DNA of 53,143 nt from Dissophora ornata (Eukaryota > Mortierellomycota > Mortierellomycetes > Mortierellales > Mortierellaceae): NCBI GenBank assembly GCA_025201705.1, contig MU616702.1, positions 1 to 53,143 on the forward strand. The letters are read 5' to 3'. This document shows positions 1-21,384 of the stretch, piece by piece. A model generated the notes under the pieces. It was not told the DNA's origin, searched no databases, and saw only the letters and a program-made list of their open reading frames with translations. Both the position numbers and the translations under genes were made by a program. Every line of letters starts with the position of its first letter. Within the stretch, counting starts at the first letter, position 1.

Positions 1-120
1 TTATCACCCCTTGCCATTCACCTACTAGCTCTGCCCCATCCCTTTCATCTTTCCCTTGTCTGTATCCATCATCCCTATCAGCTTTTCTCTCTTCGCATTT
101 ACTCGTTCATTCTTTTTCCC

Positions 121-3100
121 ATGGGTGTCGTTGGCGCGTGGCCTTTCATTCGCAAGAAAGGATATGAGCCCACGCTGGCACATCCAGACTCGGCGCGTTT
201 CAAACCAACGAATGAAGGCCCCTTCCGTCATATTGATGTCCTGGGATGCTATTTCACGACCATTCGCAGGGCGTATTCATGCAATGACGAGGCCAAGGCG
301 CAGTCGATTGTGGAAACCGCCATTCGAAAGCATGCAGTGCCCACCAACTCTGCTCTGTACATCGACGGCCAGCCTTCGCAGGAAAAAAGGGCCACCAACC
401 TTCGCCGCCAGGAGATTCGCGACATGGCGGTGAAACAAGCCGAGCTCGATATTATCTGCCTGGAGGACCGAGTGAACGCAAAACAGAAAATGCGCAAACA
501 GGTCTACTTTTCTGCCAAGAAAAACCTCGAAAAGGCTTTCTCCTGGTCTTTGGACTCCAAGCTAGGTTTGGTCGAATTCCTGCGATCAAACGGATGGAAT
601 GTGGTCGAATGCGACACTGAAGCCGATGTCATGATTGCTCGCATGTCAATTTCGAGCGACATTGTGGTATCGAGGGACAGCGACTTCCTATTCTACCACA
701 ATGTAGAGACTATTTGGCGACCCATTTCCAACAGCAAGCTCTTTGTATACAACATACCGCAGGTCTTGGACGCCCTTCAAGTCAACAAAGACCAGTGGAC
801 GGCCTTAGCCGTTGTATCCAAGAACGACTATACGGCCAACATTAACTCACTTGGTTTGCACAGCAACCATGGTATCATCAAGAACCTGGAGGGAACAGGT
901 AAACAAACTTGAAACTTCTCTAGGCGTGTCGTGCTCAGTTTGCTGACCTAACTCTGCGTTGTTTATTATTATCAAAATGATCACCTGGTGATAGATCCAG
1001 CACATATTGTTGATCAGTACCTGGCATCTCCAGAAGTCCAGCTCAAGAATGCCGATGGCCAAACTTTCTGTGAATCATTGCGAGTGTTTGTTCAGAACCA
1101 GCAAACTGTACTCGTGTCTGAGACCTCGTCTTTGATATCCTCCGAGGCCACGTACCCAAGTCTTCGAGCGAGACTTTTCAGGCTAAAAGAACAATATTCT
1201 GCGATCGTGCAGTCGCGACAGGAGGATACCGACCGCTTAAAGAGGTATACGCATAAGCAACACCGTCACGACGTTTTGTAGTAACGTCCACTGTACCACG
1301 TATTGACTTTGGATACTCTACCTATTCTTGATGAAATAGCCAATCTTCCGGATCACCACGGCACAAGTCCTGTCAGACATTCAATCGCTATCGCACAATT
1401 GACCGGCCAGAGGTCAAAGGCGCAACCGATCATCACCAAAAAACTGAGGATGAAGAGTGCGTCGTGTCTAAGCTGTCGATCGACACTGGAGAATCCCCAG
1501 TAAGAGCCATAACCGCAGCATCTTCATTACCATCAGCGACTACAATCTCAACAACGACAACAAAGCACGCAGAGAAAACTAGGAAAGGACCTTGCCATCG
1601 CCCACGGTATGTGTGGAAAACACGCTCCCGACAAATCCGACAAGAGCCTCCAGCCTCCATGAAGCAATACAAGCTAAAACCATGGAAAAAGGTGCCAGAG
1701 CAACCGTCAGGATCCGATGTTGTTGAAAAGGAGGAGGAAGAGGAGAAGGAAGAGGAAAAGGAAGAGACAAAGCGGAACCGTAAAGACATCAGTGACATGA
1801 ACAAACTTGGGTTGCTTCGTTGCTTCGAATACGAACATCCTATCGTTACCCTCAATGTTGGGACACTGAATGCCAACGTTCGCAGGGCCTTAGCCGAAGA
1901 CTCGATTCCGGTGCCGAATGAGGCCACTACCTCCAAGGCCGCCAATCCAGGTTCTCTGAGCCCGGAGACCGTGATCGACCATCTTAACGAGGCTGTCGAG
2001 ACGGCAGCCACAGTCAAACGAAAACTCCAGAGACTTGTTGGCGGTTTTATTCAGCTGATATTTTCGAGAGGCGCCTTCGAGGCATCGGACAGACAAATCC
2101 TTGACCACCTCTGCCCGCGCACCGAAACCGACGCCAAAGGCTCTTCTGCCATCAAGTCGAAAGGCAAAAGGAAGAAAAAATGCAGATATGACCACGTCGG
2201 CTTTGTAGGCATGCTGGCTCGGTATCTACACTCTGGCAATCCGCCTGGCAGCTCAAATATCGGCAATGATGTGAAGCGGTTCATCAGTCGCGCTCAAGAC
2301 CTGAACTTACTTCCAAAACAAGTTTGGCAACCTACAAGGAATGTGATGAAGTTTCCGGCCGTTACTGTGACCAGAAGTATCACCTCCGATCTTGTAGCCC
2401 AGTTCAGTCGATTCTACAAGATTGGAAGTGTAAAGCTTCATGACAAGGTAATGTATTATATTTCAAAGAGAGCGATGATGGAACGATGCTGAAACTGTCT
2501 TCTAACATTTACATGTTATTTGATTTTTGATCAGCTCGAGAAGCAGTTCAAGAAAGGACTTTTAGCTGCGGGAGTAAACATTGCTATCGACGACAATGTC
2601 TCTGCCATCGAGAATTTTATCCGGCTGAACAAGATCAACGGTGATCGCTGGAACACAGTACCTATCACCCCTGTCGAGCAGCCCTTTATTTTGTTCTCTG
2701 AGCTTGATCTGGTGAAAATTTTCTGGTCAAACCCCATTCTCAAGGACTGGCTTTCCGGGAATGTACGACTCAAAGGTGATGCAAAACCTGCTCTGACGGA
2801 CGTAGTGGGTTGGCTGTCTACACAGGGGCCTGGTTGGCTGATCTCCAAGCTCTTGACAGACAATGGACGAGTCGACCGTCAAGACTCTGAAAGGAAGCGT
2901 CGCCGGCGAAATGGTCCCAAGATGTTCAACGCAAGAGCAATGAATAAGGAGGCCATGAAGGAACATTTGTCACAATTCCGAGAACCCGGTTTTGACCCTC
3001 GAAACTACAGTGACAAAGGGTATGCTCTCTCTGGATCGATCCGAACGGACGGATTTCGATTGCAGCTGCTTTCCTTCAAGCTTGGGGAGCTGAACTCGGT

Positions 3101-4378
3101 CCGATACAAGCGCCTGAGTGAAGACGTTTTGCCTGACAGGATTACTTCGACTGTTGGAGGAGTGGATTACCACTTGACAGAGATTAGGAACGTCGTAAAA
3201 TCAAGGGATGACGTGACAAGGCTTTTGGGATGCGAGCCAGAGGATATCAACATCATCGGCCTTGATCTTGGGCAAACCTGTGTTGTCGGGGCAAGTGCAA
3301 TCTTGCCGAATGGTGGACCTGGAAAAGACAGAGCTGACGAAGCACGATTCGATGTCAACGGTGATGTCCAGATGAAGGAATCCAAAAATGCCGCCAAACC
3401 TGAAAAGTTCTACAACTTTGTTGTAACACAGAAGGCCCTATACCAATCTATTTTCAAGAATCGTCGGTGGATGGACAAGGAGAAAAAGAAACCTGGGTCG
3501 AATAACTCTGAATCCATAACGGACATTGAGAGCGGTCTTGCACCACGGGCAGGAGAGGATTCTGACTTTCTCAAGTACTTGGAGTGCCTCGATCAAGCCG
3601 CCATGAGGCTCCACGACTTCTATAATGGCAACCACCATCGCTTTAAGAGACGTGGATGGGATGCGAGGAAGGCCTTTGAAGCCGAGTTCGCAGTCATAAC
3701 AGACCGCATCCTGGGTATTGTTGGGGGCTCGATTAGCAGGAAGAGGGATGAGAGCTGTAAAATGGTGATCGCCATGGGCCTAGGACAGTTTTCATCTAAG
3801 ACAAAGCTCACATCTTTACATACTGCATTTATGGCATACTTCGTGCGAAAGGTAACGTAATTCCATCATGAAAGAGACCCTGGGTTATGTGCAACAATCT
3901 AGAATTAACACCTCTGTTTGTATGATAGGTCCGCTCATTGGGATACATTGTACTTGGTGTGAACGAGTACTTTACATCAAAAAAGTGCCCAGTTTGCGAG
4001 AACTTTGTTGGTCAAGTAAACATTCGGAGATTATATTGCTCGACGTGCCAGGCGTACATGCATCGAGATGTAATGGCCGGCCATAATATGTGTAATGCGG
4101 TGCGCGGGCATCTTATGGAGCAGCAACGACCCAAGTATCTCCAGCCAATTGATGCAGCAGGCAACTACCCTTGGATGCCTGAAGAACCCGCAAGCACCAG
4201 CACAAGCACAAGCACCAGCAGCACCAGCACAAGCACAAGCACAAGCACCAGCACAAGCACAAGCACAAGAACAAGAACAAGCACAAGCACAAGCACAAGC
4301 ACCAGTGGCACCAGCAGCACCAGCGGAGGCGGAATTAACCAAGGTCAGCCTCGGCAGAAAAGGCAAAAGCGTGCCTAG
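121..4378 (+). CDS. FEN1/XPG-like nuclease fused to a Fanzor (TnpB-type) RuvC nuclease
   Basis: Five exons: 121-898, 995-1244, 1340-2447, 2535-3851, 3929-4378. All four introns are GT-AG (77-96 nt) and the phases match, giving 1300 residues with no break. Residues 1-260 show the XPG N and I regions: MGVVGAWPF start, acidic residues D39 and D82 (YIDGQP), E167-A-D169, D186-S-D188 and D236 (KNDY). This is the order of metal ligands in FEN1/XPG flap nucleases. After a linker of acidic and basic low complexity (about 345-470) comes a TnpB/Fanzor-like half. It has RuvC-I D956 (GLDLGQ), E1164 (NEYFTSKKC), zinc cysteines C1171, C1174, C1188 and C1191, and RuvC-III D1198 (HRDVMAGHNM). The tail is Ser/Thr repeats ending in a basic RQKRQKRA stretch, a possible nuclear signal. 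Known: Fanzors are RNA-guided DNA nucleases often carried by eukaryotic transposons. Inferred: a two-nuclease protein, mobile or domesticated. No terminal repeats were found. Confidence 0.85.
4190..4325 (+). repeat. Coding AGCACA-type hexanucleotide microsatellite
   Basis: Near-perfect AGCACA/AGCACC repeats inside the last exon of the nuclease fusion. They encode an alternating Ser-Thr tail between the RuvC-III motif and the basic C terminus. The tract is also open in other frames, which explains several spurious overlapping reading frames on both strands. Confidence 0.9.
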
Positions 4379-5562
4379 GGTCCGCCAACAAACCATCAAA
4401 ATAATTTGCCTGTAAGCCAACACGCTTCAAAATATTCGGTAAGCTGGCGACCACGCGATTTACCTTAACTATGGACATGTTTCTTTATTCGGTGACGTAT
4501 ACATTTCAAAATGACGTAGTTTTAGAAAAAATTTTCCAACGGTTCTTCTGAAAAGAACAACATCCCTTGCGATACAATTTTCTTTCTTTTCCACTTTCTC
4601 CTTTTTATTCCCACCCCTTCTTCCTCTTCGCACTAGTTCCTCCTCATCAACCCTGCATCAAGCTCTGATCTGTAAGTCTCATATGCCGTGTTCGTCTCCT
4701 ATTGCTACTTCACCATTCTTCGGGGCTTTGAAAGAGGGCCAATTGTTCCGCGCACGATGAAACACAAGCTGGCACCAGTCTCAGGCGTTAACCGGTGATG
4801 ACAAGCTAAACAGAACTGTCATACGCAGATAGTTCCTGACGCGACCTACTACATACACAATGTGTATTCGTTGACCTCTCTTTCATCCACAAAGCCCCAC
4901 GAACAGAAAAAAAGATCTTTTTTTTATTGGTTGATCCAGTGTATTAATTGATCTTCGTTTTCTTGTGTAGTAGATCAAGGTGAAGTCAAGGCTGTAGAAC
5001 ATAGTCAATGTTATTTGCAATAAACGAAAAAAAAGTAGTATTTTCTTTTCGTTGGTGGCTTTTTCGTTTACGGAATCAGAAAGATAAAAATATGTTGTGG
5101 TTCAGAGAACAGCCCCTGAAGCCCTTGTACAGTAAACGTTTTCTTGTCGCACGCAAGCGGGCCCCGACCCATCCACGCATTCGCTCACGAACAAAGCCTC
5201 AAAAGTCGAGGCGCGAATTGAACAGGCGACTGGCGATACTTGTGAATTAGCTTAAAGAGCTTTTTGGCGCCTGCTTTAATTGCGGTGACTGTTTTGCACC
5301 CGGCTCAGCCTTTTGCTGAAAGGAACAAAGTTCGCGGTTGGCATTGAAGTCATCGTGTGCATCACATTCCTCCACACCGCTCTGCAGACCATCACTACCC
5401 GCTGGACTATGTACTAGGGAGCTCGCGAAACTTGGCAATCAAACATATTCCATCTCCTCTCCTTTCTGTTTCCCCACTTTCTTGAAGCCCGCGTTGTGTT
5501 TAGTGTTTCACTTTAAAGATATCATAATACAGAGGGAATACACAGCAGCCAAGCTTTGAATC
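4379..5562. other. Intergenic region with pyrimidine-rich promoter-like stretch and possible 5' UTR intron
   Basis: No supported gene. It holds two TGACGTA copies (4493-4499 and 4512-4518). A short hairpin-capable GTTCTT...AAGAAC lies near 4540-4556. A long CT-rich stretch at about 4570-4650 resembles the upstream regions of other genes here. A good splice donor (GTAAGT at 4672) follows, and an acceptor-like ATACAG lies about 30 nt before the next start codon. Together these suggest that the downstream RING ligase has a 5' UTR intron of roughly 860 nt. That is inference only. The part nearest the fusion gene is also where a guide RNA would be sought. Confidence 0.4.
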
Positions 5563-8480
5563 ATGGGAGCTGTCAGCTCGTCGCTCTCGCAGAGTGCAGA
5601 CTGGGTCCGGACACAGGGTTCGGCTCTTTCTGGCTATGAACGGCAACAGACACGGCGGCGAAACAGGCGAAGGAGACAACGACAACGTGCACGACGAGCT
5701 GGTAGAAACAATGCTCAAGATATTGAAGCCCGGGGTGAAGAGTATCTGACAGATGACGACGATGATGAGGATTTTGGCTCCTCGGATGACGATGAAAATG
5801 AAACATTGGACCTCAACGAGGAGGATGACGACAGTAGTCTATTGGAAGCCGAGGATGGTGACTCTGCGCCAGGCAAGGGTGCCCACGACAGCCATCCGCT
5901 CTATTTCGGTCCTGCATTTCACCCCGTGACGGAACAGAGTCCTGCTCAACTTCAGCTGCAGAGACAGATTGAACAACAGCTTGAACAGCAACAGCGACAG
6001 GAATACTGGCAACACCAATATCGACAACAGCAACAGCAGCAACAGCAGCAAAGTCAACAGCAGCAACTCTCTCCGTTATCAACAGCAGGCGGTCAACAAT
6101 TGTCCCTGAATGATTTTATTCTACCATCAGCCATATCAGGACTGGGAGGAATCAGCGCAGGCGGCGGTGCACAGGGTGGGGTAGCAGGGCCGGGCCCGTC
6201 TCCTGGACGTAGCTCGATTGTGGATGGCGCCCATGACCAACTGTACAGGAACAGCAATTTATACAACCTTATTTCAGGATTGAACGTCAACGCACTTTTG
6301 ACAGAGGTTCAGCGCGCTGGAACGCTAGATCTTTCGGTCTTGGAGCAAGAGCTGGATGATGTCGAGGGTGGATGGATGGATATCGACGAGGAAGAAGAGC
6401 AGGACGGCCACAAACAGGACGATGATGATACCGATATCGACTATGGACACGAAGGCATTGTCCGCGAGATGGTAAATATTGCTCCTGCCCCCGATACATA
6501 GTCATCGGAAAGAACTGCCTGGTTTCTAGAACGCTTATACTCATACTGCGGCTTTACACTTTGACGACCACGTTTAGCAACCGACGAAGCGCTCACCCAC
6601 TGCGCTAGCGTGCAGTGTCAATCTGAAAAAGAGCACGCTGCGGTTGGTCAAGAACTTCGCCATCTCAAAAGATCCTTCAATCCCAGCACCCTCACATTTG
6701 CGGCCAAACTATCGACTTGACTTTTCATTTGATAGCTTAACTCCATGCGATGTAAAGCTGTTCTGGGTTGTCAAAGAGGTCGAAGAAGATGGCGAACTGG
6801 GCTTTCGATTGAGACGCCTGCATCACTTGCCGCAGCCAACGACGTATCATTTCCCTGCAGGCATGAACCAGCGTTTTATTTCGCCCATCTTACCGCTCTA
6901 CACGATGTCCCTTCCAGAGCTGACAATGCAAGGATTGCCGTCGACTTCGATGCGAATGTTTCAAAAGAGGAACCAAAAGCAGTGGCAGCAACTCAATACA
7001 ACGGACAAAGACGACGTCGAAGGTTACGATGTGGATGGAGATGGCGATAATGACACTGCAGCTGCCGGCGGTCGCCAACGGAAGAGTAAACACTGGAAAA
7101 AGAACGGAAAAGCGGGCAAAAATGGATCGGAGGTATACGGGAGCTATGCAAGGAAACAAGGTGGACAATCCCCCAAGCTAGAGGACGACGGATATAAACC
7201 CATCATGGAAGATCAGTATTTCCCCCTAGTCATCTTGATCGAGGCCACCAAAGAATACAAGGCAACGGGTACGGTTTGATGAAACGGACTTTAAGTTTGT
7301 GGGATTATTGTCAGCAACAGTAATTCACTGATAATCTGTCAATGCGGTTGTGGGGTTTGTATCTGTCATAGGTCCAGTCCGCAGCCTACCAACGCCTGAT
7401 GCTGATTCGCCGGGTCTATACTTGGTTGATAGCCAGGCCATATCAACGTTCGCCTGCTTCAACATTAGCTCCGAAGGTGGTTTCGAGATCAAAGTCATGA
7501 AGCAAAAGGTCTGGATCAATTCGACAAATTACCTGATCCAGGAGATTTATGGCTTTACGGATTCTGTCACTTCACCACCACCGAAGGCTGCAGAGATGGC
7601 CGCTTCTAAAGCCACTTCGCAGTCTCAGACTGCACAGAAGCAAGACAAATCCGGAAAGAAACCACTGGATCGGTCCATGTCCAGATTGAGCCGGGCGGAG
7701 TCGATTGCAAGCAGAGTGGATGAATTAACAAAGGACGGTCCAAAGCGAAAGAAAAGCAAGCGGGCGTCTAGAGAGTCCAACGCAACGTTAACAAAGGAGA
7801 CAGAGCAGACGACGGCTTATGAAAGTCATAGGGCGTCTAGCGGTAGCTTGGTTGTGAATCTGGCAATCACAGAGCCGGAGCTTGCAGCCAGGCCCTCTTC
7901 TGCGGTATCGGCTTCGACACGGAAACGGGACTCTGAAGACTCGGTGCGATCCAGTGCATCCAGAACAACGTCAGTCAACGGTTCGGGGCTTAAAATTGAG
8001 ACTGGCGTTGGGGATGATGACGACGAGGCAGGTGTAGATCCGGATGAGGAGTTGAGTAGCGGTGAAGTCCTGGCGACAGAAGAAGAACCGAATCTGGTTC
8101 TCTTGGATGCCCCTGAGTGCGTCATCTGTCTTTCGGACGTCAAGGATACGATTGTGCTGCCCTGCCGACATTTTTGCATTTGCAGCGAATGTGGAGATGT
8201 ATTGCGCAGACGAGCCCCACAGCGATGCCCAATCTGCCGACAAGGTAAGCAGTTTGAAACGCTGTGGATGCGATAGCAACAAAAAAAAAGAGGAGATAAA
8301 ACGCTAACCGCGACATCCTTCATACTGATGTTGCGATACCTAGTTTTCCAGGCGCTACTTCACATCGCTTCAACGCCAACAAGGAGGCCAGAGTTTTCAA
8401 TGGTCTCCTCGCCAACGCCTTCTACTCTTCCTGACTCGTTCGTTGATGGCTCCAACACGCGTTATTCGGCTCGGGCATAA
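5563..8480 (+). CDS. MGRN1/RNF157-like RING E3 ubiquitin ligase
   Basis: Four exons: 5563-6471, 6578-7268, 7372-8244, 8344-8480, giving 869 residues. The product should transfer ubiquitin from an E2 to membrane-associated targets. MGAVSSS at the N terminus fits the N-myristoylation consensus, as in MGRN1, RNF157 and plant LOG2. Next come an Arg-rich patch, an Asp/Glu-rich region (about 65-105) and a Gln tract (about 125-172). The MGRN1-type domain starts near residue 315 ([14 protein letters not shown]), with the NYRLDFSFD and NYLIQEIYG segments, but it is split by a Lys-rich insertion. A C3HC4 RING lies at about 783-822 (ECVIC...CRHFCIC...CPIC). The last small exon supplies FQALLHI, equivalent to FRALLQI of the animal protein, which confirms the final splice. 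The middle 590-770 is Ser/Lys-rich and probably disordered. The substrate is unknown. Confidence 0.88.
6024..6066 (+). repeat. CAA/CAG glutamine tract
   Basis: Mixed CAA/CAG repeat coding for a near-pure Gln run in the RING ligase N-terminal region. It is one of several polyQ tracts in this window. Confidence 0.85.
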
Positions 8481-12202: not shown

Positions 12203-15200
12203 ATGGACCCCCATGGCCCCACCAAACAACACCCATTTGACGACTTCGACCATGTGATGTCCATGCATCCGAATCGCGAGGTCGACTCGTCTGACCCCAC
12301 TGCCGATACCGCCGCCCCTGGACCAACAACGGTCGTAACCACCCCATCCGCGATCTTGGTGTCTTCACCCCCTCCGCTCTCGAGCGAATCGTCCTCAAGC
12401 ACCATCAGCACCAGTGGTACTATCAGCACGTTTGCATCGGCGCAGAGCACCTACAGCCCTGCAACGACTAGTCGTCATCATCATAACTTCGCTCAGCATG
12501 CAGCTCTCTCCTCGCAAGGTCCCCCCGTAGCCCCGCTCCAGACCTCGACCACGAGTCTTGCGACCAGTGCAGCTGCTCGATTCAGTCAGGCCTTCTCACC
12601 TTTGCTCTCTTCTCGACGCAAGTCGGCAGCAATCGATATACCCTCGACGCCTGACGGCCACAAGTTCTTCTTATCTTTACTCTCCGGCTCAGCCCACGCC
12701 AACTCTGGATCCTTTCATGGTTCAATTAATGAGGGTGGCCTAGCAGCGAACCATAGCCAGGAGCATTTGAGTAGCCATCATCAACAGCAGTCCAGCAGTA
12801 GTAGTAACATCAACCATTTTGAGAACAACTTCAGCAAGATGACGTCCTTCAGCTCTCCACGATCCACGAATCGGTCGCGAAAGACCCATCCTGGAGGGAT
12901 TGCGCATCCGCCAGAGGATTCCGGTTATGGGCCGTATGCAACACCCCCTCATACGGCAACGGCTTTCCACGCTGGATTGCCATCGCATTTCGGAATGGGG
13001 CCATCGAGCAGCCAAAATCGGGACCATCATCATGATACAGGGCACAAAGACGGGAAGGGAGGCATGATCGGTAGCGGATCCTCATCGCCGGCTGAGAAAG
13101 CTCTGAAGAAAGCAAAGGCGTTCTTTGACGAGAAGCAGAAGCCAAAGACTCGTGCTGCATCACTATGGACATTCCTTGGTAAAATGAATGAGATTATGAC
13201 ATTTTGATGCCGGTTTGAAGAATCAGCTTTCTTATCCTGTTGTTTTAAATTGCACCTTCAAAAAAAAACGGATAGATGCGACATCGGAATATGACCATGT
13301 AAAGTTCTTCCAGGAACATGCCGATCAGGTCTTCACGGTCACGCACGACTCATTCTGGCATCAAGTTAACAAATTCAAGCAAAAGCCCGACCGCAACAAT
13401 GGGCTGCAGAGCAAGGAGGTGCTTGGAGTCCAAAAGACATTGCTTATCCTCCGCCTCATCTTTTTATATCTGCCTGAACGGATGAAAAATGGTTGGTGCC
13501 GGCGACCCATTGGTGAGTGAACGATTTCATTATTTCAGGTTGCACTTGAAATTAAAAACAACTTTCTCTAACCGAGGGCATAAATTTGCTCGATTTTTTT
13601 TATTAGCCAACATGCTGGCGCAAGTGCTTTGTCACAAAAACCATCCTCGGATCCGTATCTTTGGATTCCGATTGTTGTTGCTGTGGATCAACGATCAGAC
13701 GGTCGAATACCCCGAGGCAATATACCTGTTCTCGAACGCCGTCTCCCTCGATCTGTTTATATCCGACGGAGAAGAAGACCTATCGGTTGATCACGCAAAT
13801 AATTCCCAGACAAGACTGCCGCTCTTGAGCACCACTAGTGTGGGACGTAAAAGTGCGAAGCAAGTCTCACAGTATTTTGAAGCCAACATCAATCTCAACC
13901 AGGAACTATTGCAATGTAAAGTGGCCATCAAGTATCTTTCTGTCCCTATGTGTATTCCGCGACCCTGGCAGCTATCGCCATGCAATGTTAGCCCGTGGGG
14001 CTCATTCTAACCTTGCCAGGATGTTCTCCATTGCCTTTTTCTCTTTTAGCCGATGGTCCCCCAATCTGCCCGAACCCATCGCAACCGACATTTCAGGATA
14101 GCATCCAGTTACTCCAGATATTTTTGGGAAATATTGTCCGCATGGCTTATGTAGCTGCAGGATCCACACCGCCACCGGGGGAGCTGGAATCGATCAACTC
14201 GCACTATCCGCTCGAAGCAGATGGTGCGAGTAGCGATGGAATCGCTGTGGGGTTTGGAATTGACGCGGGAATGGCGGCAGCAAGGTTCATGTTTGATATT
14301 ATCAAGAAGTATTACCTCGTCAAGGTTTTCCCTGAGTGCGCTAGGAGTCTGAATCTGATCAGAGACGAAGGAAAAGGTATGAGAGGAAAGAAGGGAAACC
14401 ACCAGGATAAAGGAGAGATGGTTGACCGATATTTTCCTCTTCAGGACACTCATTTCTGACAATCTGCTTTGCATTTTTTATTTCGCGTGAACATTTAGAG
14501 TTTGGATATAAGAGATGTCCACCAACGATCTTGAGGACGATCATTAGTTTTGTGATCCAATACTGTCTCGACAGCAACGAATTCAACTCCCCTCAGACCC
14601 ACACCTCCCCTGCCACCCCCATTCTCAAATCCATAGTCTATTCCTCGGAGGCCAATCGAGAGATCATTCACGAGATTGTTCGTCAGGGATTGAGTTTGCC
14701 GGGAGGACACCCTCAGTACAAGGACATTATCCGTGGTGCAGTCCACATTGTTGGTGTCTGGTGTCTCAGCAGTGAAGAGGAACGACCAATGTTTTTGCGA
14801 AGCCCCGTCAACCGATCCCATCAAGCCCCCTCCAGCGTCTCTATAGCCTCGCTCGGTAGCCAGGACTCAGTAGTTTCACAGCAAGGACCATCGTCACAAC
14901 AGGGTTCTAGTGCTGTTGCTGGTAGTACCGGCAGCGCAACTCCTACGATTGAGCCGTATCCGACTGCCAACTCATTCCTGCAACGATATTTCCAGCTTTT
15001 GACAAATGTCTTTGCAGAAAACCCACTAGTGTTGCAGGACCTGGGATCGAATTCCTCGTCAGAGGCGTTGGGATCGCTTGGGAACCATGTGAAATTGGAC
15101 ACTGATGCATTACTCCATCTGTACAAGGATATTATTGGTCTGTTCAGGGCGATCTTAGCGCGGGGCCAAATTGAGATGGACACGAGGAGTTGGGAGGTGC

Positions 15201-18200
15201 TGTTGGGGTCCCTATTAGAGATCCAGCGTAGGATCGTGGGTTTGCATGAGAAACTGTCGTCAATCATGTCCCCAGCCGCGGTCGATGACCTGCTTTCGGT
15301 TGTTATTGAGGTATGCAAAACTTGATACAGGTCATCTTCAGATCTCGATTAAATATGGATCTCGAGGAACGTTACTGATACTTGCCGTTTATTTTAATTT
15401 TTGCCTCGTAGACTGTGTTGTGCGCTCATTCGAGATGTCCAAACGTATCGGACGCACAGTGGGTAGCGCTGAGGAAGACGGTAACCGAGGGGCTGCGCCA
15501 CCCTCAGACCGTCGCTCAATGGGCTGTAGGTGAAATTCTTGATCCTCGTATCATAGACAAGCGCGCTGTATGTTATTCCGGGATATGTTTTTAACACGTT
15601 TCTCTATCCCGATTTCTTTTCACAGAAATGCTCCGTCCGACTTACCCATGTCCTCTCTCACGAAGTCTTCCAGGTGGATCTGGACGCGCCTACATCTTCG
15701 CGACCCACACAAACATCAGCCTCTGTAACCCGACACTCCCGCAAGATGTCCGACAAGTTCCGACATTCACGTTTTCATTCCTCAAAACAAGATAACCCGA
15801 TGCGTCATTCTATTGGAGGAGAATTGTTGTCGTCGCAGGGGATAGCCTACCCGCATTCAAGTCATATTCACCACCAGACCTATCCTCTCGCAGGCGTAAA
15901 CCATATACAGGACCGATCATCGTCTTCGCGTCGCGCCAATAGCGTGCATTATGAACAAGCTAAACAGGGCGGTGGTGCTTCAGGTGGCGGAGTAAATCTG
16001 ATGACTGTGAGCGGTGGGGGAGGTGGTGGTGGTAGCATGGGCAGTGGTTCTGGTGGCAATGGTGGAGGAGGTGGCGGCGGTACTGGCGGGACCCAGACGT
16101 ACTTAGGATTCTTGCCAGCTCGAGAGATGGGCCTGGGACGGATTGATATCGGAGAAGTGGATGAGGATGAAATGTACGACCATGTTGGCACGCATATTTC
16201 AGCATTGACTGAAACATTGGAAACAAATGATGAAAAGGTACAGCGGTGTACAGTAGCTGGCGTTGTTGCGATACGACTTGACGGTTGATGTCTATTGAGA
16301 CTAATATTTTCCTTTTTCTTCTTCTCTTTGTAGCTGCTTTCGCGCGCATCCTCACTTTCGTTCCATGGTCCCGACAGCTTACATCTGGATCCTATGGTGG
16401 AGCGCTTATCCTCACTGTATGGCCTTTTTGCAGCACCAGAGTTTGTAAATATCTCTATGAAGGGTCGCTTTGCAGAGAACATCCTATCAGTCTGGAAGAA
16501 CATTGTTTGCTCGATCGGCAACCCAAACGACATTCAGGTATTTTTTTTTCTTTCATCTCGCGATATTCAATGCTCTCATTTTGCTTCCATGATACGTGCA
16601 TTGAACATCTCTTTTGTTTTTTTTTTGTTAAATCTCGACTTATCCCGTATACACTTTTAGATTCCACTTGTCAAGACGGAAGTAATGCTCTGTCTTATCG
16701 ATATCTGGGACTTATTGAACCAGACAAGAGCTGCTCAGTCCATTAACGCAACTCTGATTCCGCCGCTATACGACTTTGCGCCGTGGTTCTTTGAGGCAGC
16801 CAAGAGCAGTAGCGATGGTGGTGTGGGTCTGCCAGCAATCTATGGAGGGCTCTGTCGGATGATGAGCCGACGATATGATCAAGACTTTGATCCAGAGTAC
16901 TATCAGATGTTTTACGCCAGCGTCATCCAGGGTCTGCAAATCGAGGATTCCATGATTGGACACTCGATCCTTGCAAACAGCAGTCGATTGTTCACACTGT
17001 CGCTTCCTGGGAGCCATGTCCTGGTTATTCCGTACTTGAATGCCATCCGACAAATGTTGCTCAAGGACGGACACTTGAGAGACGGAGTGAAGCATTTTAT
17101 CAGAAAGCAGGCCATCGCGATCCTATGCTCTGTCACCATGCTCTTTTACGATTTCGCTCATCAAAACCACGACCAGAGGTTCTCTCACATCAACAAGGAA
17201 TCAACAAATGAGCAAGACCCTACTTATATGAACGGGGAGCTGTTGCCGCAAAAGCTGACATTCACCCGGCTCGTCCTGGATCTGACATCCGCCGAGGCCA
17301 ATGTGAAGTCTCTGGGCAAGTTCTGGGATACGCACAGCATGCTGATTCAGCTTTGCGGCATGCTTGTGGTGAACGAATGGAGCTCGAGTCTGGAAACTTG
17401 TGATATTGGACTGGAGAGCGAGTTGTTGTCATTGGTGTTAGATCATCTGTACTGGACAGAGGCCAGTATTGTCCAGAGCGCGGTCGAGGTGATTACAACA
17501 CTTGCAGGCATGTACCAGGACCACGAGGACAACGGTTGGGTATGTAAACAACAACAACAACAAAAAGACATGGTTGATTATCGACACTGTACTGATATGT
17601 TGTTTACCACCTTACTTTGTATGAATTATTCAGATCATTCTTGAAATGGTTCTCTCGCATCTTCTGAGCGCCCTGCAAGAACATCTAAAGTTGTTCCAGA
17701 GCGATACGCGACGAGGAACCACAATCGCATCATTCTACCGCTGTCTAGTCGAATGGCTGATGGTGATCCCTGCAAGGATTTTTTCAGAAACAGAGCTTTC
17801 AAAATGGGTCTTTGAGCTTATTGAGGTCGGACTCCACTGCGCACCTGATTCTACAGGAGAGAATGAGCGCAAGCGTGCCCTTCAGGCTGCCAGGCAACAA
17901 CAGCAACAGCAGCTACCGCAGCTACAGCATCATCAGCAAAGGATGAATAGAAAGCGAGGACCCAGTTTCAAGTACACAGGCAAGACGATTCATCAGCATC
18001 ATCGGGTCATGAACAACACAGGACCCTTAGTTGATGCGGAGGTTGAACAGCAGGTGGTGAAGGAGGCGGCCGAGGCGACTTTGATCCACCTAGTTCATTT
18101 TATGAACAATATTCCTTCAATGTACGGATCTGACCGTGCCCTGGTCACCATGGGCATGGATTCCGGCAACGGTAACAAGGATCTAAATGAACAGCAGCAG

Positions 18201-21200
18201 GGCGCCAACAAGAGGGACAGTGGCATCGAAACCCAAAAGGTTTTTGCGCTAAACGACTCGATCCTGATCACGCTCGAGGAAGTCCCAACCTCGGGACCTA
18301 CGATGGGACCGTTTCATCGAACCCGGGTCGTTATCCGGGACGAGACTGGCCGGTATGCTTGGGATTCTGAGATCTTTTACAGAGAGATGCTGCATGTGGA
18401 GGAAGTCGTCGGTAGACCACGGTCAGTACAGCGAGTTGGATCAAGATTGAGTGGCATTGGTATCGGCGGATCGGCCCCCAGACGACGCAAAAAGGAGTTG
18501 GCCAGTCAGCTCATTTGGCGAGAGGGCGTTAAAATCAAGAACGATGAAGAACATGGCAACAAGCCCAGAATCGTCTCATCTGTGTCCACCAACTCTATGC
18601 ATTCTTCTTCTCAATTCGGAAACACCAGTTCACCGAGTATGGAAGCGCTACTGTGGGATGGATCCTCATCGAAAAGTGATGGCGATATGCTGGATCAACT
18701 GCTGCACTATATTGGCGACAAGCATCCCGATTGTTTGTTCGATGGCAAGACTCCCCTGAACCAGCTCAATAACGGTATGGCACTTTCCACAGAATCCAGG
18801 GATAATGCCAGCTACCCCAGCAGTAGTGACAGGAATGTCAACAACGGCAACCGCAACGGGTCTGGTGGTAACAATGGGTCTACCAGCAAGAGGTCGACCA
18901 TTGATTTTGAACTGGACAGACATGTTCAGGAAGAAAACTATTATACCCGGATCTCAGACCCCCAGGCGCGAGCCTGGTATGATAAGCTGGTTGAGTGGCG
19001 ATCAAGTCTTATTCAGTCAGATGATGATGATGATGCTGATGAGTACCATGGATCCAACACGCTCATGTCTTTGGTTGTCAACGCGAATTGGAACGCATCC
19101 ACCCCTTCTTCACCCTCTGCAGAGAGGCAGCAGTACCCCCAACAGCAAGATGAGAAAGGCTCTAGAGATTCGAGTTCTTCTGGGCAAGCAGAAGGTGAAG
19201 ATCACACTGCACCTTACAATCGAGCAAAGCATGATTCTGGAAGGAGAGTTCGACATGACAACCTACAAGAGATTCATGAAGAAGCGGTTGGTTTCAACCG
19301 TGACCACAGTTCCCAGGGACCTGATCGTATTCCGCCAAGAAGCTCCTCCTTGGTCGAAGACTTCCAGTACAGGAACAGTGAAGACAGCCAGAGAGAGGTC
19401 CTAGGCACGAGCTTACTCAAAGAGGACGCTACCAACATGGCCAAGGCTTTCCAACCCGTACTGCCACCTGAACCCGAGCGACCTCTGGATAGTTATCAGC
19501 ATAGTCGACTGTTGTTGAGTCACCTGGGGCTCTTGTGCTTTGACCGATTCCAAGAACACAACTTTGTACTGCTAAACCACTCTGCATTACTAGACAGGGA
19601 GCTGAAGAGTCTGGACAAGAAATCTGGGCGGGAGACGTTCAAAATTGCAATCCTCTATGTCGGACAGGGCCAGGAGGGCGAGCAGGTGATCCTGCGCAAC
19701 TCGAAGGGTAGTGCAACATATAACCAATTTGTCCATGATTTGGGATGGGAAGTTGAGTTGGCGGACCATGCCGGGTATTTGGGCGGACTTGAGCGGAATG
19801 GGTCGAATGGCCAGTCGACTATGTATTATTGCTCCTCGACACTAGAGGTCATCTTTCATGAAGTCGTTCGGATGCCAACAGAGCCTAGCGACCCGCGCCA
19901 GGTCAAAAAGGTAAACAAACACAGCAGCTCCTTATCGCACAGCTCTTGTGTTTCTTCGACACAAATAGTCCATATTTTAACTTTCTGGTGGCGGGTGTCT
20001 ATAGAAACGTCATGTCGGAAACGACCATGTCCATATTGTCTGGTCTGAGCACTCTAGAGCCTACGATCGCAACACCATCGGCGGGGATTTCGGAAACGTA
20101 ATCATTGTCCTCACTCCCATCCCGAATCTCAAAATCGAAGAGGATGGACAGCTGAATATTGGTCGGGGTCAACAGCAACAAGCCATAACAGCGTCCAGGA
20201 ACGACCGTTCCAGCATGGTCTCTGTTGAGGTCATTCGGGATACGAACTTGCCCGTCTTTGGTCCTCTGGTCGACGGCATGGTCGTCCCCATGTCTCAACT
20301 CGGAAGACTGGTTCGACAAACCGCAATCCATGCGGCACGGCTCGCGACAGCCCCGCCGCCTCTCCCACCAACACCTCCGTCCGCAGGTCTTTTTAGTTCC
20401 GCTAATGGTCCAGGTTTAGGTGCCGTTGTAGGCGGTATGAATGGGTCTGGAGGCGGTGTAGGTGGCGCTGGTGGTGCCTCTGGAGGCGGTGGCGGTGGTC
20501 ATGCAGGAGCGACTGGCTCCACTACCTCCGGTGTAGGTGTTGGAGGCGCGAGTGGTGGAAGTGGACAGCTAGGTCATCGAACAAGTGTTTACCAACCTGC
20601 TCCTGGATCGATGATCAATTCTGCGATGCAAGGACATCAGTATCATTTGTCAAACCCTGCAATTCATACCGGATCGGTCTCTGCAGGAGGAGGAGTTCTT
20701 GCTCCAACAAGTGGGTCGTTTGGAGCGGGTCATGGCAACTATGAACATACCAATCCCACAACACCGGCGGCCACATCAGCGCCATCGCTACCAGCCACGG
20801 CTGCAGCAGCGGTTCCCGGCACGAGTGCGCTATTGACAACCAGTATCACTAGTCTAGTGAATGTTGGTAGCGGCCCTAAAGCTGCATCAGTCTCTTCGCT
20901 GCACAGCAACTCAGGCAGTGCCAATGGTGGGATCAGCACGAACAGCAGTAATGCATCTGGTGGTGGCGGAACAAGTCTATTACCAGGGGGTGGCAACGGT
21001 GGCGCCGTCAACGGCATAGCTTCCGCGTCTGTTGGAGGACCAGGAGGGTCAGTATCAAGTGTGGTTAATAGTTCGAACGCGACACAGACACAAAGCCACC
21101 ATCAACAGCAACAGTATGTGCAGCATCAACAGCCATATCAGCAACAGGTGCAATCATCATCGATGGCAGGACAAACTTCCTCCGCAAGTGCAACAGTGTC

Positions 21201-21384
21201 ATCTGCATTATCAGCCTCGATGGGTGTAACCCATAGCGCACACCCGTTCAAACTACGTGCGTCGGCGATCGAGCTGATATCGAGGCGCCACAAGATCGAG
21301 AAATGGACCTTCCAGCAGTTCATGGAGCAAGTCTTTGGATACTCGAACACCCAACAGTACCCGCATCACTCTCGGAGCCTTTGA
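12203..21384 (+). CDS. RalGAP-alpha-like GTPase-activating protein
   Basis: Eleven exons: 12203-13178, 13276-13512, 13607-13915, 14050-14376, 14499-15310, 15412-15525, 15626-16237, 16334-16537, 16661-17539, 17634-19910, 20005-21384. They total 2708 residues; the human alpha subunit has about 2040. It should stimulate GTP hydrolysis by a Ral/Rheb-type small GTPase, probably with a beta subunit. After a Ser-rich start, helical-repeat segments match the family (EYDHVKFFQEHADQVF, FGFRLLLLWIND, and QWA near the end of exon 6). The Rap/Ral GAP domain begins near 2158 (FKIAILYVGQGQ). The catalytic Asn thumb is N2255 in KRHVGNDHVHIVWSEH. That motif is split by the last intron, so exon 11 starts at KRHVGN. 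An insertion of about 285 Gly/Ser/Gln residues (about 2375-2660) separates the GAP core from its conserved last helices (WTFQQFMEQVFG). RalGAP is preferred over TSC2 because of the HIVWSEH and FGPLVDG segments. Confidence 0.88.
16010..16092 (+). repeat. GGT/GGC glycine tract
   Basis: Simple repeat encoding a Gly/Ser run in exon 7 of the RalGAP-like gene. Confidence 0.8.

Follow-up and report, generated by a model that had tools for sequence, protein, structure and literature searches.

To our knowledge, RNA-guided nucleases leave the processing of ends to separate cell factors. The described systems closest to the locus reported here are, on one side, Fanzor1, Fanzor2 and the TnpB/Cas12/TranC proteins and, on the other, the nucleases FEN1, EXO1, XPG (RAD2) and GEN1. 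According to Yoon et al. 2023 (PMC10711439), a glutamate placed six residues before the zinc finger is a Fanzor trait and DPG at RuvC1 is near-exclusive to Fanzors, whereas in typical TnpBs some 50 residues separate the glutamate from the zinc motif downstream. The window, by which is meant the whole stretch of 53,143 nucleotides that was analyzed (Dissophora ornata contig MU616702.1, here C141 of a 31.4-Mb, 968-contig genome), carries at 121..4378 of the forward strand a predicted gene whose product begins with a FEN1/EXO1-type nuclease, about 345 residues long, and continues as a Fanzor-like RuvC half. It was read as one gene for a two-nuclease protein, in which a guided cut would be followed by shaping of the end by the flap nuclease; we give this interpretation about an even chance of being right. 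A Fanzor-FEN1/XPG fusion was not found in the titles and abstract starts of the literature searched, most subscription papers lying outside that search, and within this scope the statement in the preliminary description of the locus that no system of such form was known still stands. The terms 'XPG', 'FEN1' and 'flap' were absent from the main texts of PMC10711439, PMC3627910 and PMC10432273.

The five predicted exons, all on the forward strand, join in phase to 1300 codons and one stop, as first described, and all four introns are of the GT..AG type. Exon 1 (121..898, residues 1-259) starts with MGVVGAW and encodes the FEN1/EXO1/XPG-type nuclease core assigned by AlphaFold2 and Foldseek. Exon 2 (995..1244, residues 260-342) encodes the end of the flap-nuclease half, the homologue P0014 aligning to EXO1 over model residues 2-312. 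Exon 3 (1340..2447, residues 343-712) contains a linker with the conserved motifs NRYRT..RPRY..KQY, after which the Fanzor-like half begins, and exon 4 (2535..3851, residues 713-1151) holds a Fanzor-like region, possibly equivalent to WED/REC, together with the first part of the RuvC domain. The catalytic glutamate, the zinc ribbon, the catalytic aspartate, a Ser/Thr-rich tail and the stop are encoded by exon 5 (3929..4378, residues 1152-1300). Introns 1 to 4 are located at 899..994, 1245..1339 (in the linker between the halves), 2448..2534 and 3852..3928, and identical splice ends are present in a second copy of the gene on contig C295. The joints 898/995, 1244/1340 and 2447/2535 agree with the preliminary description, from whose list the last joint, 3851/3929, was missing. 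The frame of exon 1 is open up to the contig start; the Met-Gly start at 121 is shared with human XPG and with most of the family members long enough to include this region.

That the halves belong to one intact gene was likewise borne out at the level of sequence. The motif NRYRT (about residue 358) sits just past the joint 1244/1340, and its own frame in the window has 16 open codons upstream and no Met, so that here it could be translated only if exon 2 is spliced to it. Of 26 stretches scanned, seven contained the motif. No Met precedes the upstream stop at four of these places (the window, the near-identical copy L003, C237 and L009); a Met lies 24 codons upstream at the other three (C298, L011 and L013), which would favor two neighboring genes, as would the gene models P0021, P0024 and P0030, each of one half only. 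Against two genes, or an artefact of gene prediction, stand the models made by other annotators for other species, in which both halves are continuous across the joint (fusion proteins of 1109-1335 residues predicted for other members of the Mortierellaceae), and the colinearity of the two halves at 11 of 11 loci read at the DNA level. Based on the linker motif, the colinear paralogues and the models of other species, the two-gene reading was rejected for the window.

The identity of the N-terminal half was examined by fold prediction, profile searches and site conservation. The AlphaFold2 model of exon 1 had a predicted local distance difference test score (pLDDT) of 92.5 and a predicted template modeling score (pTM) of 0.87. 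Foldseek returned 401 matches with E <=10 for this model, 60 of them with E <=0.001; the best 50 were all EXO1, FEN1, Rad2 or XPG chains, with TMq up to 0.75 for EXO1 and an E value of 2.2e-9 for FEN1. The family profile matched RAD2 (1.6e-12) and Methanocaldococcus FEN1 (2.1e-11) in the PDB, as well as XPG, human FEN1, EXO1 and GEN1, and placed the DG, K, R, acidic cluster and NDY features opposite the same features in RAD2, FEN1 and XPG. Catalytic sites were tabulated in 46 rows (30 proteins of a first homologue search, 15 picked from a second, and the window protein), 22 of which had N-terminal coverage above 0.6. Among these 22, the first acidic site, D39 (235..237), is D in 17 and gapped in the other five; D82, K89 and R96 (364..408) are each kept in 20, the DG, K and R standing opposite those of RAD2, the Methanocaldococcus FEN1 and XPG. 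The XPG-I acidic cluster E167, D169, D186 and D188 (619..684), aligned to RAD2, FEN1 and XPG, is kept in 21, 22, 20 and 21 rows, respectively, and D236 of the NDY motif (826..828) in 20, the stretch following it aligning with the DYT..G region of RAD2 and XPG. K89 and R96 occupy what we take to be the positions of the gateway residues K93 and R100 of FEN1.

When the N-terminal halves of the window protein and 19 homologues were aligned (20 sequences, residues 60-259), the eight FEN1-type sites D82, K89, R96, E167, D169, D186, D188 and D236 had a mean top-residue frequency of 0.994, whereas the region as a whole averaged 0.57 (p about 1e-5 from 100,000 samplings); the acidic sites, six in number, also stood out from all 22 D/E columns (p 2.6e-4). 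The PIN-like FEN fold, the acidic metal site and the gateway Lys/Arg by which Rad2/XPG membership is judged are thus all present in this half. As judged by sequence and model, a nuclease of the FEN1/EXO1/XPG type occupies residues 1-345, with almost no variation at its catalytic acids and its gateway K/R. The assignment made in the preliminary description therefore stands by fold, sites and profile, but not by the Pfam XPG_I model, which remained below its cut-off in the window protein itself (15.9 vs 24.9 bits). XPG_I was above cut-off in P0004, one of seven homologues scanned, and in four paralogous loci (C661, C298, C21 and C425). A simple pattern scan of the window protein for the PCNA-binding motif Q..[ILMV]..[FYH][FYW] gave no match, for which reason the half was not named FEN1; this and the fusion to a Fanzor-like protein are its differences from FEN1, EXO1, XPG(RAD2) and GEN1. 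The genome's four strongest XPG_I loci (C184, C352, C375 and C374) are on other contigs, separate from the fusion family, and are probably ordinary FEN1/EXO1/XPG-type genes.

The C-terminal half has the TNB zinc domain and RuvC signature of the TnpB/Cas12/TranC proteins. PF07282 scored 38.4 bits in the window protein, above its cut-off of 26.3. The best sequence match of the C-terminal profile in the PDB was the TnpB-like protein L79 (3.7e-6), which we take to be a mimivirus protein, followed by LaTranC (4e-5) and Cas_phi3 (0.0013); TnpB itself reached only 0.26, and all five homologues tested scored below the curated cut-off of the NCBIfam TnpB model. Of 44 covered rows, 43 have D at the RuvC-I position D956 (GLDLGQ, 3264..3266) and one has a gap. 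The catalytic glutamate E1164 (3965..3967) takes the alternative position: it precedes the first zinc cysteine by six residues and not by about 50, as is typical of TnpBs (PMC10711439). A zinc ribbon of C1171, C1174, C1188 and C1191 (3986..4048) was recognized by Pfam, alignment and motif, and the RuvC-III aspartate D1198 (HRD, 4067..4069) is present in 34 of the 44 covered rows, with a gap in the remaining ten. All these residues, as well as the acidic positions of the N-terminal half, are at the places given in the preliminary description, and the three RuvC residues are ordered as described in the Fanzor structure paper (PMC11423790).

Of 144 proteins scanned, 37 carry the zinc motif, the window protein included. 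The glutamate six residues before it is E in 34 of them, G in two and K in one. The motif of Bao and Jurka, D-X(125,275)-[TS][TS]XX-C4 ribbon-X(5,50)-RD, as worded in PMC3627910, occurs in 35 of the 37, anchored at D956 in the window protein; the two misses, P0118 and P0135, are short pieces. The family thus resembles Fanzor1/Fanzor2 in its C4 ribbon, alternative glutamate, HRD and Bao-Jurka motif. It departs from them at RuvC-I, where the window protein has DLG and not DPG and where the triplets of the 37 proteins are DLG in 19, DGG in five, DPG in three, DMG in one, DAG in one and not read in eight. The D-to-E spacing is 208 in the window protein, compared with 120-160 in the search expression of PMC10711439; the expressions given there, with DPG or non-P and the 120-160 spacing, match one and three of the 37 proteins, and the window protein is matched by neither. 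The earlier designation as a Fanzor-type RuvC nuclease is accordingly retained as to zinc ribbon, glutamate place and fold in a homologue, and the DLG led us to the name 'Fanzor-like' instead of Fanzor.

The fold of the whole fusion was modeled on P0014, a homologue of 1166 residues from Dissophora globulifera, using 30 sequences. Strands and helices in RuvC order are predicted at residues 841-1113, and a single Foldseek list for this model contained both EXO1 (6.5e-10) and FEN1 (9.0e-10) and the Spizellomyces Fanzor structures 9ceu (1.1e-8) and 8gkh (1.9e-7). The matches to Fanzor 9ceu, 9cez and 8gkh ranged from 1.1e-8 to 1.9e-7 with a TM-score of 0.48 by target length, and the alignments to SpuFz1 extended over 788 (9ceu) and 790 (8gkh) columns, gaps included. 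The structure predictions called for in the preliminary description thus point to an EXO1/FEN1 fold for exon 1 and, in this homologue, to a RuvC fold for the C-terminal half. VIA-align of the P0014 model listed the N-terminal domain only, which is expected for a long model and is not evidence against the C-terminal fold.

Homologues were sought in three protein searches, which required shared 5-residue words and scored 7,984 to 7,995 candidates each. The first gave 30 homologues, all with Mortierellaceae names; the second gave 153, the best 120 of which comprised named proteins from Mortierellaceae and many unnamed metagenome proteins; the third gave eight, every named one from Mortierellaceae. 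No named relative outside this family was therefore among the matches listed by these word-based searches, the metagenome proteins being without taxon. The placement of Dissophora in Mortierellaceae was checked, and that of the other genera is in part our assumption. The closest named sequence compared was P0127 of D. ornata (94% identity over 612 alignment columns, window residues 450-1061). Within its own genome, exon 4 was matched 103 times, on 64 contigs, and exon 1 was matched 48 times, on 40; 18 contigs have both, which agrees with the earlier impression that such proteins are multicopy in Mortierella-like fungi. The 11 loci read at the DNA level, window included, are among these 18; from coordinates alone, the two halves are near each other and on one strand at C228, C556 and C7, and not at C177, C190, C249 and C497. 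The ten further loci read share 27-77% identity per tblastn segment with either the window protein or their best homologue, except C661, which is 85-88% identical per segment to P0017 of D. ornata. Taken together, the sequence comparisons suggest an old, dispersed fusion family, so far encountered in Mortierellaceae alone.

One N-half-only copy at C425:8400-15329 (L028/L048) is 78% identical over residues 1-259 to the Linnemannia hyalina fusion P0005, which by sequence comparison is high for two genera. A set of TnpB-like proteins on viral contigs (L056-L080) has IDLG at RuvC1 in 24 of 24 read and the glutamate six residues before the zinc motif in 20 of 24, the other four not being matched by the glutamate pattern; judged by PMC10711439 this combination is atypical of TnpBs. 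These proteins are distant relatives of the fusion family. Their local profile alignment is confident over the zinc region only, and a forced longer alignment path places D956 opposite their IDLG.

Both halves were covered in 18 proteins (17 of the 30 from the first search and the window protein), and 16 of these show no substitution at any covered catalytic site, five of the 18 (P0001, P0003, P0011, P0012 and P0020) having gaps at sites of the N-terminal half. In P0012, catalytic sites of both halves are altered; P0028 no longer has the glutamate, and its N-terminus could not be aligned. Distances of the N- and C-terminal halves correlate over the 18 proteins (Mantel r 0.72, p 1e-4), and the groups P0002+P0003, P0005+P0006+P0020+P0012, P0009+P0014, P0007+P0022 and P0004+P0010 appear in both trees.

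The only young duplicate of the window gene is the C295 copy, 98% identical over window positions 863-4482 with the four splice ends kept. The 3' stretch common to both copies is 4379..4482 on the forward strand, homology ending at about 4482, and the 3' end sequence matched C141 and C295 only; the first 870 bases of the window had no second match. Since the C295 contig breaks off before the 5' end of its copy is reached, the element ends are not definable. The window copy adjoins a RING gene and a Rap_GAP gene and the C295 copy adjoins mitochondrial-carrier and RNase PH genes, differing neighborhoods that suggest dispersal. Residues 1236-1300 are identical between the two copies, unlike the rest of the pair, and tandem AGCACA-type repeats (read by eye) at 4189-4330 encode the Ser/Thr tail right before the stop. 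Just past the homology end, flank words at 4480-4493 and 4571-4585 correspond to the reverse complement of L003 at 3628-3649; next to the window copy they lie apart and next to the C295 copy they overlap, and with E values of 0.57 and 0.16 they are not significant alone. The Rap_GAP-type gene, an ordinary host neighbor, occupies several frames at 14429-21381, with RALGAPB_N below cut-off upstream. Rfam gave a sub-threshold snoRNA-like match at 4752-4840.

Based on what is known for Fanzor and TnpB, the Fanzor-like half, probably loaded with RNA, would form an R-loop at a selected DNA site, which its RuvC site would cut. The attached flap nuclease would then cut or trim junctions of single- and double-stranded DNA, as FEN1, EXO1 and XPG are known to do, and from an end so shaped repair could copy the gene or keep its locus. 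RNA guidance, cleavage, cooperation of the two sites and the purpose served are all proposed by analogy. A further-reaching version, in which the protein is a self-contained RNA-guided two-nuclease machine, its FEN1/EXO1-type half cutting the R-loop junction or resecting the break so that a single polypeptide chooses the target, cleaves it and processes the ends, and in which the family either spread through Mortierellaceae in a homing-like, selfish way or became a genome-defence repertoire, is put forward tentatively and is in our estimate more probably wrong than right.

Several results weigh against the two-nuclease reading, the DLG triplet described above among them. The C-terminal fold was modeled in a homologue only, with a pLDDT of 73.9 and a pTM of 0.53, and its superposition on Fanzor is loose (root-mean-square deviation about 20 over the 788 columns); the domains can hence be said to correspond, the placing of the halves not being reliable. 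Different from Fanzors, there was no guide RNA fold signal at the 3' end of the gene (4360-4482, 123 bases; z 0.07 against shuffles), although this is not a binding test, and Rfam gave nothing over the gathering score in window positions 1-8000. Inverted repeats in positions 1-5600 amount to ten short imperfect pairs, with no long ones. Approximately unbiased (AU) tests reject one tree for both halves (8e-6 for the C-terminal data on the N-terminal tree, 0.008 for the converse), so some exchange has occurred; the clearest conflict concerns P0018, which groups with P0013 in one tree and with P0007/P0022 in the other. C120 has a gap at about residues 437-803, one matched stretch of C253 contains ten stops when introns are counted, and stops occur in C112 and C237 as well, on which grounds many genomic copies are probably broken. 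The C295 copy has a premature stop and the ratio of non-synonymous to synonymous rates (dN/dS) of the C141/C295 pair is 0.44, computed over residues 249-1300 from 20 synonymous changes and 30 non-synonymous ones, pointing to weak or relaxed recent selection in this pair.

The most serious rival, though an unlikely one, is a domesticated host family of DNA-repair or genome-defence enzymes, enlarged in the manner of other multigene families, in which the Fanzor-like half would have given up RNA guidance and be a DNA- or R-loop-binding nuclease. Ordinary host genes beside both flank-scanned copies, the short inverted repeats and the high identity of C425 to a Linnemannia protein fit such a history, and in a number of diverged paralogues the tblastn segments are interrupted close to residues 259, 713 and 1151, as expected of shared introns. 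Dozens of dispersed and partly broken copies, and a 98% copy in an unrelated neighborhood, suggest instead a mobile or selfish past, and almost every covered member retains the RuvC site. The protein could also be a passenger nuclease of a transposable element, its flap-nuclease half processing element ends or flaps during copying. The abrupt 3' end of homology at 4482 agrees with this, and PMC3627910 reports Fanzor1 from fungal DNA transposons, some with target-site duplications and without recognizable inverted repeats. No transposase was found by Pfam in 20 window frames and four frames beside C295, the only flanks scanned; this, the absence of long inverted repeats in positions 1-5600 and the undefinable element ends weigh against a passenger role, which we consider improbable.

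The PIN-like nuclease class includes RNA cutters, and the flap-nuclease half might take the guide or R-loop RNA as its substrate, to mature or remove it, in place of the DNA target. XPG has been reported to act in R-loop processing (PMC8235791). The closest folds are nevertheless those of the DNA-acting EXO1, FEN1 and Rad2, and the K/R gateway positions are kept, for which reasons action on RNA is considered very doubtful. Least credible of all is a pair of neighboring genes or a prediction artefact, to which the colinear loci and the linker leave hardly any room.

On the two-nuclease reading, a family-wide fusion of a Fanzor-like protein with a FEN1/EXO1-type nuclease, with both sites kept, would be a natural coupling of cutting and end processing. 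Published search expressions for Fanzors and related proteins mostly miss the lineage that the fusion family represents. Such a fusion would bear on why eukaryotes keep retaining relatives of TnpB and would provide a concrete enzyme for testing.

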